Source: Siphonobacter sp. BAB-5405 (GTDB lineage Bacteria > Bacteroidota > Bacteroidia > Cytophagales > Spirosomataceae). Taken from it: 64,000 nt of DNA. The DNA lies in contig NZ_NJAG01000011.1 of the NCBI RefSeq assembly GCF_002872335.1, positions 124,001 to 188,000 on the forward strand. Reading direction: 5' to 3'. The notes under the pieces were generated by a model. The model searched no databases, was not told the DNA's origin, and worked only from the letters and a program-made list of their open reading frames with translations. A program made the position numbers and the translations under genes. Numbering within the stretch: the stretch's first letter is position 1; every line of letters begins with the position of its first letter. This document shows positions 9,142-53,970 of the stretch, piece by piece.

Positions 9142-9174
9142 AAAAGCCTTCACCCAAGTTGGATGAAGGCTTTT
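9142..9174 (-). terminator. Terminator downstream of infB
   Basis: AAAAGCCTTCA at 9142-9152 pairs with TGAAGGCTTTT at 9164-9174. The A-run on one side and T-run on the other allow it to act in both directions; the natural user is infB, ending at 9262 on the minus strand. Confidence 0.7.
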
Positions 9175-9186
9175 ATTTTGTTACTA

Positions 9187-9213
9187 GTTTTCAGTTGTTT
9201 GTTTTCGTTGATC
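9187..9213. repeat. Lone GTTNNNN heptad arm
   Basis: Four consecutive units beginning GTT (GTTTTCA, GTTGTTT, GTTTTC, GTTGATC) lie between infB and its terminator. They match the arms of the heptad hairpins at 28317, 37994 and 53404, but no complementary arm is present here. It may be a decayed or half copy. Confidence 0.45.
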
Positions 9214-9261
9214 GAAAATTTTTGACGAATCTTCTAATCACTTACAACCCTTAACGATTCC

Positions 9262-26880: not shown

Positions 26881-28317
26881 ATGAAACGATTACCTTTACT
26901 ACTGGTCGTCTGCTCTTTTGCCGGGCTTACCAGTGCCACACCACCGCAAGGGAAAGGCTCCTGGAAGAGTCTTTTCGACGGTAAAAGCCTGAAGGGCTGG
27001 AAAGTGGCCGAAGGCTCTGCTTCCGGAAAAGCCCGGTATGAAATTAAAAACGGTGAGATTATCGGCATTTCACAAACCAATACCGCCAATACCTTCTTAC
27101 TCACCGAGCAGCAATACGGAGATTTTATTTTTGAGTGCGACGTTAAGGTAGACAACTCCCTGAATTCCGGTATTCAGTTCCGCAGCCTGCAACGCGAAAA
27201 CGATGGTCGCGTATACGGCTATCAGATGGAGATTGACCCCTCGGATCGTAGCTGGAGTGGCGGTATTTATGATGAAGCCCGTCGGGGCTGGCTGGCCATG
27301 CCCACGAATTACGAGGCGGGGAAAAAGGCCTTTAAACGGGGCGAATGGAATAAGTACCGCATTGAAGCGATTGGCAATTCATTACGCACGTTCGTTAATG
27401 GCATTCCCGTTTCAAACGTCGTCGATGACCAAACGCTGAAAGGGTACATTGCACTGCAGGTACACAGCATTGGCAAAGACGCCAGTAAGGAAGGGAAAAC
27501 CATCCAGTGGAAAAATATTCGTATTCAAACCGAAAACCTTCAACCTTCTCCCGTCGATCAGGCTCCGGTCGTGAATCTGGTTCCTAATACACTGACGGAA
27601 CAGGAAAAAGCTCAGGGCTTCAAACTGCTTTTTGACGGAAAAACGAGTACGGGCTGGCGAGGTGCTTATAAAACCGCCTTCCCCGAAAAGGGCTGGACGA
27701 TTAAAGATGGCGTACTGAGCGTAGATAAAGGCGACGGAGCCGAAAGTACCAACGGAGGCGACATCGTGACCAATGATTCCTACGGAGCTTTTGAACTGAC
27801 CTTCCAATTTAAACTTACGGAAGGAGCCAACTCGGGAATGAAATATTTCGTGAAAGAATGGTTACCCTATACGCACGAATTCAAACCCGGTCAACCGATG
27901 ACTGTACCCGATGGTTACGTAAAGAAAGGATCCGCCATTGGCCTGGAATTTCAGGTACTGGATGATGCCCGTCACCCCGATGCCAAACTCGGAGCGGCTG
28001 GCAACCGTACTATTGGTTCTTTGTATGACTTGATTCCGGCGGATAAAACGGGAGCGAACAAAGCCGCCGTGAAGCCGATTGGTGAATGGAATGAAGGCCG
28101 GGTCATTGTGTATGCCAACAATCACGTTGAACACTGGCTCAATGGCTTTAAAGTAGTCGAGTACGATCGGGGCTCTCCCTTATTCAAGGCTTTGGTGGAA
28201 CGTTCAAAATACGCTTCTTACAAAGGTTTTGGCATGGCCGAAAAAGGTCCCATCCTCATTCAGGATCACGGCGATGTCGTTAGTTTCCGCAGTATAAAAA
28301 TTCGTGAACTAAAGTAG
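26881..28317 (+). CDS. Secreted protein with two DUF1080 (3-keto-disaccharide hydrolase) domains
   Basis: A 478-residue exported protein (signal MKRLPLLLVVCSFAGLTSA) made of two DUF1080 concanavalin-like domains. The first begins SLFDGKSLKGWKV (about residue 30) and contains NSGIQFRSL and YQMEIDPSD. The second begins LLFDGKTSTGWRG (about 248) and contains NSGMKYFV and GLEFQVLDD. Pfam names this family 3-keto-disaccharide hydrolase; members cleave glycosides after C3 oxidation. It is preceded by a TIM-barrel isomerase and followed by a Gfo/Idh/MocA oxidoreductase, the expected partners. Two domains in one chain might reflect two substrates or one inactive binding domain. Confidence 0.87.
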   Translation: MKRLPLLLVVCSFAGLTSATPPQGKGSWKSLFDGKSLKGWKVAEGSASGKARYEIKNGEIIGISQTNTANTFLLTEQQYGDFIFECDVKVDNSLNSGIQFRSLQRENDGRVYGYQMEIDPSDRSWSGGIYDEARRGWLAMPTNYEAGKKAFKRGEWNKYRIEAIGNSLRTFVNGIPVSNVVDDQTLKGYIALQVHSIGKDASKEGKTIQWKNIRIQTENLQPSPVDQAPVVNLVPNTLTEQEKAQGFKLLFDGKTSTGWRGAYKTAFPEKGWTIKDGVLSVDKGDGAESTNGGDIVTNDSYGAFELTFQFKLTEGANSGMKYFVKEWLPYTHEFKPGQPMTVPDGYVKKGSAIGLEFQVLDDARHPDAKLGAAGNRTIGSLYDLIPADKTGANKAAVKPIGEWNEGRVIVYANNHVEHWLNGFKVVEYDRGSPLFKALVERSKYASYKGFGMAEKGPILIQDHGDVVSFRSIKIRELK

Positions 28318-28437
28318 TTTTCAGTTTACGGTTGTCTGTTTTCAGTTGGGTTGAATCGATAAAGCTTTGACCCATTGTAGCTGAATTAGCAATAATCCAT
28401 TTTCTGAATTGAAAACAGTAAACTTCAAACTGAAAAC
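28317..28437. repeat. GTTNNNN heptad hairpin, copy 1
   Basis: The left arm (28317-28347) is a run of 7-base units each starting GTT (for example GTTTTCA, GTTTACG, GTTGTCT). The right arm (28408-28437) is made of units ending AAC and pairs with it over about 30 bases with several mismatches. A second small hairpin, CAGCGG/CCGCTG, lies at 28458-28473. It overlaps the last base of the DUF1080 stop codon and precedes the oxidoreductase gene. Confidence 0.65.
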
Positions 28438-37975: not shown

Positions 37976-37993
37976 TTTTGTTTTTAGTTGTTG

Positions 37994-38074
37994 GTTGATG
38001 GTTTTTAGTTGTTGGTTTTAGATTGTGATACCTTTCTCTTATACTCCATCAACGAACAACTAAAAACCATCAAC
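37994..38074. repeat. GTTNNNN heptad hairpin, copy 2
   Basis: The 20-base arm at 37994-38013 (units GTTGATG, GTTTTTA, GTTGTT) pairs perfectly with 38055-38074, made of units ending AAC. A further unit, GTTGTTG, precedes the left arm. It fills the gap between folA start and sdaA stop, both minus strand. Confidence 0.7.
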
Positions 38075-52524: not shown

Positions 52525-53325
52525 TTAGGCTTCTTCCTCCGTCGTTGCCGCAGGAGCTTCAGCTACGTCAGCACCTGAATCAACGGCCCGTTTGGCTTCT
52601 TCTTCTTCCTGAACGCGAGCATCGTCTTTATCTTGCTTACGCTCCATCAGACCTTCTTCGATAGCCTTACCAATCGCCAGGGTAATCAGGCTGATTGATT
52701 TGTAGGCATCGTCATTGGCAGGAATCGGGAAATCAACCAATTCGGGGTTAGAGTTGGTATCGCACATGGCGAATACCGGAATACCTAAACGCTGAGCTTC
52801 AGCCACAGCGATATGCTCACGCTTCACGTCAATCACAAACAGAGCTGCGGGCAGACGAGTCAGGTCAGCAATACCACCAAGTACACGCTCCAATTTATCT
52901 TTTTCGCGAGTAAGGACCAGTTTTTCTTTTTTGTTCAGGTTCGCTGACGTCGTCTCATCCTTAAGCATTTTCTCAAGTTGAGTCATTTTCTTCAACGACT
53001 TGCGAATCGTCGCGAAGTTAGTCAGCATACCACCTAACCAACGGTCGGTTACGTAAGGCATTTTCAGGCGACGAGCTTCTTCCGAAACGATCTCCTGAGC
53101 CTGCTTTTTCGTAGCTACGAACATGATTTTGCGGCCTGAACGAACGATTGATTTGAGGGCGGTAGACGCTTCATCGAGAAGGGTTACCGTTTTGTTCAAA
53201 TCGATAATGTGGATGCCGTTTTTCTCCATGAAGATGTAAGGAGCCATCTTCGGGTCCCACTTACGGGTCAAGTGACCAAAGTGTACACCGGCATCGAGGA
53301 GTTCTTTATAGCTTACTTGTGCCAT
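52525..53325 (-). CDS. rpsB: 30S ribosomal protein S2
   Basis: A 266-residue uS2. Motifs include [20 protein letters not shown] near the N terminus, [32 protein letters not shown] and a central [21 protein letters not shown]. The C-terminal tail is acidic and Ala-rich ([20 protein letters not shown]), an extension common in Bacteroidota. It binds S1 and sits on the 30S back. The leader between rpsI and rpsB has a heptad hairpin. Confidence 0.97.
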
Positions 53326-53403
53326 TTTGTTGTTAAGTCAAAAAGGATGTAAAAAAAGCATGATTCGGCGTCGGACACTGCAAGCCTGAATCAGAGGCGA
53401 ATG

Positions 53404-53466
53404 AGTTTTCAGTTGTCGGTTTTCAGTTTGCAGTTCTGGACAATCCAAAAACTGAAAACTGAAAAC
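53404..53466. repeat. GTTNNNN heptad hairpin, copy 3
   Basis: GTTTTCAGTTTGCAGTT at 53419-53435 pairs with 53450-53466 with one mismatch; two more heptads (GTTTTCA, GTTGTCG) lie left of the arm. It lies inside the ribosomal gene block, between rpsI stop and rpsB start. Confidence 0.65.
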
Positions 53467-53481
53467 GGCAGACTGAGAAAA

Positions 53482-53871
53482 TTAACGCTTGCTGAACTGG
53501 AAGCGACGACGAGCTTTGCGACGACCTGGTTTCTTACGTTCCACCATACGATCATCACGCGTCAGGAAGCCAACTTTCTTCAGAGCCGTGTGGAATTCAG
53601 GGTTCACCTGATCCAACGCACGAGAGATACCCATGCGAAGAGCTTCGGCTTGACCGGCTACTCCACCGCCATCCAGGTTTGCTTTAATGTCATAAGCACC
53701 CAGGGTGTTGGTAGTAGTAAAAGGCTGGTTTACAACAATTTGGAGAACTTCAGAAGGGAAGTACTCCTTGAAATCGCGGCCGTTTACCGTGATCGTACCG
53801 TTACCCGGCGTCAAATAAACGCGAGCTACGGCAGTTTTCCGGCGGCCGAGCGTATTAATTACTTCTGCCAT
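53482..53871 (-). CDS. rpsI: 30S ribosomal protein S9
   Basis: A 129-residue uS9, starting [20 protein letters not shown] (ATG at 53871). An in-frame ATG at 53886 would add MNTKP; the shorter start fits the family. Motifs include [34 protein letters not shown], and the basic C terminus [17 protein letters not shown] that reaches the P-site tRNA. It follows rplM, the universal L13-S9 order. Confidence 0.96.
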
Positions 53872-53970
53872 TGGTTTGGTATTCATTTACCGTTAATCGT
53901 AACCTAGTTTCTGGAACCTCAGTGTACATCTGTACTGAACCCCCACGAACCATTCACGAGCAACGAAAGA

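Follow-up and report, generated by a model that had tools for sequence, protein, structure and literature searches.

What are the paired, GTT-headed heptamer repeats that recur between the genes of Siphonobacter sp. BAB-5405? The question arises from a stretch of 64,000 nucleotides (nt) of this genome (RefSeq assembly GCF_002872335.1, contig NZ_NJAG01000011.1, positions 124,001 to 188,000), referred to here as the window. An initial annotation had noted there four intergenic places with successive 7-base units beginning with GTT, which at three of them pair with units ending in AAC to form hairpins. On the evidence presented below, these hairpins are probably intergenic members, devoid of an open reading frame (ORF), of a hairpin element associated with the S23p family of 23S rRNA intervening-sequence (IVS) proteins, and would form a stem in the mRNA of operons. 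Similar arms surround S23p genes in many bacterial phyla, so that the window hairpins look like gene-less relatives of a widespread and fast-changing element. This element consists of two inverted arms of approximately 4–6 units each with a 7-nt period, the 5′ arm usually being rich in G and poor in C and the 3′ arm rich in C. The arms enclose either a short variable loop or a single S23p ORF, often tightly fitted between a stop codon and the next start codon on the same strand.

The host genome (6.49 Mb, designated G000) is one of 101 sampled genomes of the family, representing 36 genera. In 595 kb of it, comprising the whole of contig C1 and contig C4 minus 4 kb, chains of at least four GTT heads were found 21 times at a step of 7 nt and 0–2 times at each step of 3–6 and 8–14 nt, and AAC chains 14 times at step 7 versus 0–2 times at other steps. 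A scan of the window for all 64 trinucleotide heads gave chains of at least four heads for GTT (4), AAC (2) and AAA (1), and agrees with direct reading that the four sites are real. Over the whole genome, overlapping matches to (GTTNNNN)3GTT numbered 275+268, compared to 32+21 for the reversed pattern. The proposal of a genome-wide, mostly intergenic family with a constant 7-base step is thus confirmed, with a copy number above chance when the reversed pattern, the other steps and the remaining heads serve as yardstick in place of shuffled intergenic sequence. A census of arms of at least four heads, drawn from these 595 kb and from 340 kb of the sister genome G020 (sites common to both not being independent), yielded 52 arms, of which 48 are intergenic although about 88% of the scanned sequence is coding. 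Four heads were present in 27 arms, five in 21 and six in 3, one array of at least 9 heads being excluded. The 26 GTT..AAC pairs, approximately 60–160 nt long, lie between tandem genes (19), divergent genes (2) or convergent genes (1), at an edge (1), or within ORFs as called by a crude ORF picker (3); the share of tandem neighbours among intergenic pairs (19/22) exceeds that of background gene pairs (279/436, p = 0.027). Many pairs abut stop or start codons, and many come after stop codons.

Within 200 nt, the GTT arm lies to the left in 15 pairs and the AAC arm in 2 (595 kb). As such a hairpin is identical when read on either strand, the polarity reflects the architecture of the element rather than any strand bias. 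The earlier remark that units vary behind a constant GTT head can be made more precise: position 6 of the heptad is fixed per arm (identity 0.68 within arms, 0.31 between), position 4 is weakly arm-specific (0.68 and 0.52), and positions 5 and 7 vary freely. The arm-specific letter gives rise to what we call dialects, such as GTTnnCn, GTTnnGn and GTTnnTn. Near-perfect long tandem arrays of GTTTCCA or GTTTTCC were also seen at G000:C1:258600-258686 (13 heads of GTTTCCA) and at G000:C8:83608-83680 and 190731-190789; these are unlike the hairpin arms, one of them lies at a contig end, and they may break assemblies.

The link to S23p is evident in the host genome itself, where GTT-heptad arms are found around two of three S23p genes. 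Between the arms at C4:95372-95904 lies an ORF that belongs to the family of 23S rRNA intervening-sequence proteins. The protein of a sister copy between leuC and leuD (locus L054) matches PF05635 and TIGR02436, “four helix bundle protein”, and is related to the solved chain 2gsc, Xcc0516 (E = 3.9e-21), described as a homopentamer (PMC4990558). At least one S23p gene is present in 94 of the 101 family genomes, and in 29 further family genomes the best PF05635 locus (L057-L085) is mostly flanked by inverted arms of 7-nt periodicity, each locus usually having its own dialect. Flanks of family loci paired better with their own partner (19.9) than with mismatched partners (11.5) in a set of 32 loci, which included one shorter locus with a misplaced window (L061) that was left out of the larger set described below.

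The same pattern extends far beyond the family. Loci were picked by protein alone from a public genome collection, and the best 80 of 583 confirmed loci were considered. Their hosts include, besides Bacteroidota, Ignavibacteria, Planctomycetes, Clostridia, Gemmatimonadetes, Proteobacteria, Chloroploca and a Methanophagales archaeon, many of these genomes being metagenome-assembled and the host labels being those of the records. Lags of 7 and 14 nt were prominent in both flanks, whereas other lags scored 10–12.6 and far flanks 11–12.4; mean values at lag 7 (of 24) were 17.9 and 16.6 outside the Bacteroidota and 15.4 and 15.3 within. In the 76 of these 80 loci whose flanks were both long enough, alignment of the two flanks averaged 20.5 within the same locus and 10.7 between mismatched loci, with 33 of 50 Bacteroidota loci and 21 of 26 others above the 95th percentile of mismatched pairs. 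When these 76 and 31 family loci were combined in a per-side shuffle test, lag 7 passed upstream in 73 of the 107 loci, downstream in 74, on both sides in 57 and on at least one side in 90. By comparison, lag 8 passed on both sides in 14 loci and lags 5, 6 and 9–12 in 1–3, while lags besides 7 passed on at least one side in 10–30 loci. Among 68 strong arms, the 5′ arm was G-rich in 30 of 32 cases and the 3′ arm C-rich in 28 of 36, and arm length had a median of 5.0 and a mean of 6.7 units. The idea that each arm carries exactly five heads to match a pentamer was rejected, since arms with four heads are commoner than those with five. Several dialects exist at S23p loci, such as AGACAAG or TAGTGGT types. 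The initial annotation had taken the GTT head as the rule, which holds for this genome; GTT is one dialect among many, and the arms also flank S23p genes.

A useful control is provided by GxxExxY ORFs (PF13366, TIGR04256), which are likewise small and are also found in the slot between leuC and leuD. Flanks of 28 such loci (2 of 30 were left out as too short) are inverted too, with a score of 24.3 for own partners versus 11.9 for mismatched ones and 19 of 28 loci above the 95th percentile. Lag 7 passed on both sides in none of the 28, and lags 8, 9 and 10 in 5, 3 and 6 loci, respectively. The 7-nt period therefore belongs to S23p and not to small inserted ORFs in general. The GxxExxY (PDDEXK_3) loci inspected (L266-L295, with G000:C58:94803-95150 as L294) often show CACAGAG-like inverted arms with a period of approximately 8–10 nt, and these arms are a parallel class of element.

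The association also holds between genomes. PF05635 was detected in 24 of 24 GTT-heptad-rich genomes (mean 7.2 copies) versus 10 of 24 without a match (mean 0.7), and, among genomes of 2.4–4.5 Mb, in 11 of 11 heptad-rich versus 7 of 17 match-free genomes; these genomes were hand-picked from a phylum sample and the statistics ignore kinship.

The gap between leuC and leuD, which could be read in 70 of the 101 family genomes, offers the best evidence that ORF-bearing and ORF-less forms share a site. It contains an S23p gene in 9 genomes, a GxxExxY gene in 7, other long inserts in 8 and a short gap in 44; leuC was not located in the remaining 2, in one of which (G010) a PF05635 match adjoins leuD. 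A significant inverted repeat was found in 8 of 27 gaps of 60–300 nt, including ORF-less hairpins with a 7-nt period in five genomes (G002, G004, G026, G038 and G039), a near miss in G056, and repeats that are not heptads in G008 and G080. The S23p element is present in G000 and G072, and only 34 nt are found at this position in G020 and 29 nt in G060. Its identity between G000 and G072 (410/490) is in line with that of the flanking genes leuC (424/511) and leuD (451/540), so that it is most simply old in both genomes. The occurrence of an S23p gene, an ORF-less hairpin or a bare gap in one slot also speaks for a possible clean loss of the element. Two further observations were made at this locus. 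The gap of G008 (L296) is filled by a long inverted repeat that lacks the 7-nt step and probably represents a different dispersed repeat family, and the other long inserts occur in G071, G082, G058, G016, G099, G083, G055 and G033.

These hairpins can turn over between close relatives. G020 aligns collinearly to the window plus the 10 kb that follow it (74 kb in all, 91.8% identity). Two of the window sites, B and D (coordinates below), have a hairpin in the same gap in G020 but with different arms and a different loop; site C is nearly identical in G020 and has other heptads in G072, G083 and G046; and site A is little changed in G020, its arm pairs being more complete in G072 and G083. A heptad hairpin was recovered in 14 of 16 comparisons of the four sites with these four genomes, the exceptions being site B in G046, which has no hairpin, and site A in G046, which could not be anchored. 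The gap between rpsI and rpsB holds a GTT-heptad hairpin in all six sampled genomes of the same genus, again with differing heptads. Along contig C4, by-eye comparison of 11 paired sites between G000 and G020 gave 5 kept with small changes (C4 94325, 133180, 161980, 309450 and 310575), 5 replaced within flanks of 91–100% identity (C4 95372 together with its ORF, 152317, 177405, 226271 and 260808), one large indel (C4 312315) and no empty site. The S23p proteins at C4:95372 share only 78 of 154 residues between flanks of 91–95% identity, which suggests that element and arms were replaced together. In G072 and G083, the arms at site A (approximately L151:398-682 and L156:14731-14977) surround an apparent intrinsic terminator, as judged by eye, so that the loop may hold a terminator, an ORF or nothing.

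A recognition code relating S23p sequence to dialect was also sought and rejected, as the relationship is flat for non-syntenic pairs of up to 60% protein identity. Above this value (81 pairs), arms are mildly alike (13.1, 14.2 and 12.9; upstream-upstream, 13.1) compared to 10.2–11.5 below it. Syntenic pairs are much more alike (upstream-upstream, 22.9–47.7 in bins above 45% identity), although their flank windows may take in neighbouring genes. Thus, a dialect is inherited with its protein over short distances only, and the 7-nt period is constant while the letters are not.

The four window sites all lie between protein genes and none in 23S rRNA. Site A, downstream of infB, has a GTT arm at 9180-9203 (4 heads) and a weak AAC arm at 9246-9255 (2 heads); it had been described as a lone arm at 9187-9213, of which the GTT arm stands and its isolation does not. 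An apparent intrinsic terminator adjoins it at approximately 9144-9179 (by-eye reading). Site B (28317..28437) comprises a GTT arm at 28317-28347 (5 heads), a loop and an AAC arm at 28414-28437 (4 heads); it starts within the stop codon of a 3-keto-disaccharide hydrolase gene and is followed by a GFO/IDH/MocA gene. Site C (37980..38074), with a GTT arm at 37980-38017 (6 heads) and an AAC arm at 38051-38074 (4 heads), is a real hairpin that begins earlier than the 37994 first assigned to it. It fills the gap between a serine dehydratase and a dihydrofolate reductase gene, both on the minus strand, leaving 4 and 5 nt to its neighbours, and several other pairs fill their gaps likewise. Site D (53405..53466) has a GTT arm at 53405-53435 (5 heads) and an AAC arm at 53450-53466 (3 heads) in the gap between rpsI and rpsB, both on the minus strand and named from their translations; a long ORF (53401-53907) overlaps it. 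The claim that the arms pair is supported by predicted RNA folding at sites B (z = −6.42), C (z = −6.95) and D (z = −3.34), site A being an exception. A search of the 64-kb window against Rfam gave no match at gathering score. Directly 5′ of rpsB, a stretch of about 60 nt (approximately 53325-53400; same gap in relatives L092-L110) is conserved in many family genomes and often terminates in gtgctgcgta variants; within the window no Rfam family reached its gathering score there, and the stretch may be a leader for ribosomal protein S2.

The link between S23p and heptad arms is well supported, and we infer from it the following mechanism. The C-poor 5′ arm would not fold on itself and would pair with the 3′ arm in the operon transcript. 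The long stem would then close and isolate the loop, by analogy with the stem of the 23S rRNA IVS ahead of cutting by RNase III. The 7-nt step may be read by S23p, most simply through a pentameric ring touching successive heptads. Acting in trans on many ORF-less copies, S23p might aid their spread, their exchange and their tolerance inside operons. Hairpins at fixed slots would be exchanged as whole alleles (arms with loop, or arms with ORF), presumably by recombination between flanks, or cleanly lost; whole-allele exchange would leave sister species with a hairpin at a given site but with a different dialect.

Several observations weigh against this assignment of the window hairpins. Their loops measure 14–66 nt and contain no ORF, and hence no S23p (PF05635) ORF, and site A hardly folds (z = −0.35). 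Within G000, 3 S23p genes stand against some 160 paired hairpins (extrapolated from 15 in 595 kb). Only one of these genes (L055, pair score 20.0) clears the 95% line of mismatched pairs at 17.0. The copy at leuC-leuD (L054, 16.5) falls just below this threshold, set among loci some of which share its dialect, although its GTT and AAC heads are plain by eye, and the third gene (12.5) has no significant arms. Among the 107 S23p loci, 50 fail at lag 7 on one or both sides. S23p genes are present in the above-mentioned 10 of 24 heptad-poor genomes, a label based on GTT-type matches alone. Among non-syntenic pairs, dialect does not follow the S23p sequence except for a mild likeness beyond 60% identity, and flanks often stay similar in syntenic pairs, so turnover is not universal. 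A search of six genomes of the genus for a donor of the site-B loop yielded none, short matches aside (best E = 0.0186). Finally, at least one match to (GTTNNNN)3GTT is present in 302 of 395 genomes of the phylum sample, and in many of these the reversed control is equally frequent, so that the mere presence of such matches means little.

The statement that no named element follows such a rule holds only in part, as heptamer precedents have been published. The IVS of Coxiella 23S rRNA comprises an S23p ORF, a stem cut by RNase III, and tandem GACAGAT heptamers before the ORF (PMC4990558). The elements described here resemble it in their inverted terminal arms forming a long stem, in the heptamers next to the ORF and in a presence that varies among relatives; an S23p ORF inside is shared only by sister copies, at two of the three S23p genes of G000. 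Unlike the Coxiella IVS, for which RNase III cutting is described, the window copies lie between protein genes and not in rRNA, and are ORF-less. They would function like an IVS hairpin yet miss two defining features of an IVS, the rRNA location and the ORF. GGGAATC heptamers of Xanthomonas, interpreted as G-quadruplexes (Rehm 2015, PMC4692102), prefer four units, lie mostly between aligned ORFs, and form inverted pairs in 70 and 75 cases in two genomes. The window hairpins share with them the 7-nt units, about four per arm, the intergenic placement between aligned ORFs and the inverted pairing, and differ in that the Xanthomonas repeats constitute one G-rich dialect, while units here are not GGGNATC (position table of 180 GTT heptads). 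No link to S23p was seen in that study, whose main text does not mention Xcc0516, the S23p of X. campestris. TAACTGA direct repeats are known from Beggiatoaceae, cyanobacteria and Bacteroidetes (MacGregor 2015, PMC4679880), with Maribeggiatoa copies mostly before start codons and one inverted case in 170 sets. They are likewise intergenic heptamers, and their opposite-strand unit TCAGTTA resembles the CAGTT heptads found here; unlike these direct repeats of one unit, the elements of the window have differing units and paired arms, and many follow stop codons. Four helix bundle genes are merely listed in another report (PMC5524665). A literature search, from which most subscription papers were out of reach, returned no general link of heptamer arms to S23p or GxxExxY beyond the Coxiella case.

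Other explanations of the hairpins need to be considered. Placement of 19 of 22 intergenic pairs between tandem genes, often against stop or start codons, and persistence of a hairpin in 14 of 16 comparisons at the window sites, with no empty site among 11 against G020, would suit operon-internal mRNA hairpins maintained by selection as stabilisers, processing sites or translation insulators, whose sequence drifts or is swapped by ordinary recombination with no need for S23p. This is a possibility to be taken seriously, albeit an unlikely one, as it leaves unexplained why the stems have a 7-nt period rather than being any stem, why this period is shared with S23p ORFs across phyla, why whole loops change, and why the element is traceless at leuC-leuD in close relatives. 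Replication slippage in 7-nt steps, as proposed for long simple sequence repeats, would yield functionless heptamer arrays. Heptanucleotides are the top category of such repeats in most genomes according to a survey cited in PMC4679880, and long perfect arrays such as the 13 heads of GTTTCCA do exist here. We nevertheless consider slippage improbable, because the arms are short (mostly 4–5 heads), consist of unlike units, and have an inverted partner with a polarity of 15 versus 2, because some sites are replaced wholesale, and because GxxExxY flanks in the same genomes lack the 7-nt period.

Intrinsic transcription terminators might be invoked for the many hairpins after stop codons, and site A lies beside one while its G072 and G083 counterparts enclose one (by eye). 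A run of at least 5 T within 12 nt past the stem was found on only 1 of 52 stem sides, which indicates that the hairpins are not intrinsic terminators; sites also lie within co-directional runs such as rpsI-rpsB, with one convergent pair in 22, and this explanation is very hard to sustain. Repetitive extragenic palindromes (REP) and their paired forms (REPIN) are short inverted repeats between genes, most copies of which lack a gene. The window hairpins resemble such REPIN, mobilised by REP-associated tyrosine transposases (RAYT, Y1 transposases), or miniature inverted-repeat transposable elements (MITE) mobilised by another transposase, in forming mostly gene-less inverted intergenic pairs of about 60–160 nt, and three PF01797 genes are present in the genome. 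No conserved REP sequence was seen, however, the rule being a period rather than a motif. The 1.6 kb around each of the three Y1_Tnp genes of G000 shows GTT/AAC marks of at most two heads and no paired arms (by eye), and compared copies share the heptad rule and not their loops, the site-B loop, the only one searched, having yielded no donor in six genomes of the genus. Such a transposable origin is highly unlikely. G-quadruplex formation, suggested earlier for the GGGAATC heptamers found in Xanthomonas and Nostoc, could draw on the above-mentioned parallels in unit length, four-unit preference, aligned-gene placement and inverted pairs (PMC4692102). Three-G tracts are seldom possible in the GTT dialect (180 heptads) and are also lacking in several S23p dialects (AGACAAG and TAGTGGT types), and this proposal appears scarcely tenable.

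It is tempting to go further and to speculate that these repeats are part of a widespread, undescribed class of hairpins whose arm period is set by the ORF family (7 nt with S23p, approximately 8–10 nt with GxxExxY), with ORF-less copies as non-autonomous members. At fixed operon slots, a process that depends on S23p and perhaps uses an RNA template, related to that of Avd in diversity-generating retroelements, might rewrite or swap the arms. S23p shows weak similarity to Avd below the respective cut-offs (NF033474, 27.2 bits against a cut-off of 80; PF22296, 29.5 bits against 40), and the likeness of PF05635 to Avd has been remarked on (PMC10053308). We put this joint reading forward as a conjecture that is doubtful as a whole. 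If true, a single phenomenon would underlie the heptamer repeats scattered among Bacteroidota, Xanthomonas, cyanobacteria and Beggiatoaceae.

The link to S23p ties together heptamer repeats that have so far been reported piecemeal and explained separately, as translation sites, G-quadruplexes or products of slippage, and it gives annotators a rule for finding many unmarked elements. It also indicates that hairpins in operon gaps can turn over completely between sister species and yet remain hairpins. Genes for S23p, or four-helix-bundle, proteins are widespread and unexplained; the heptad arms offer them a candidate ligand, and the function of S23p thereby becomes directly testable.

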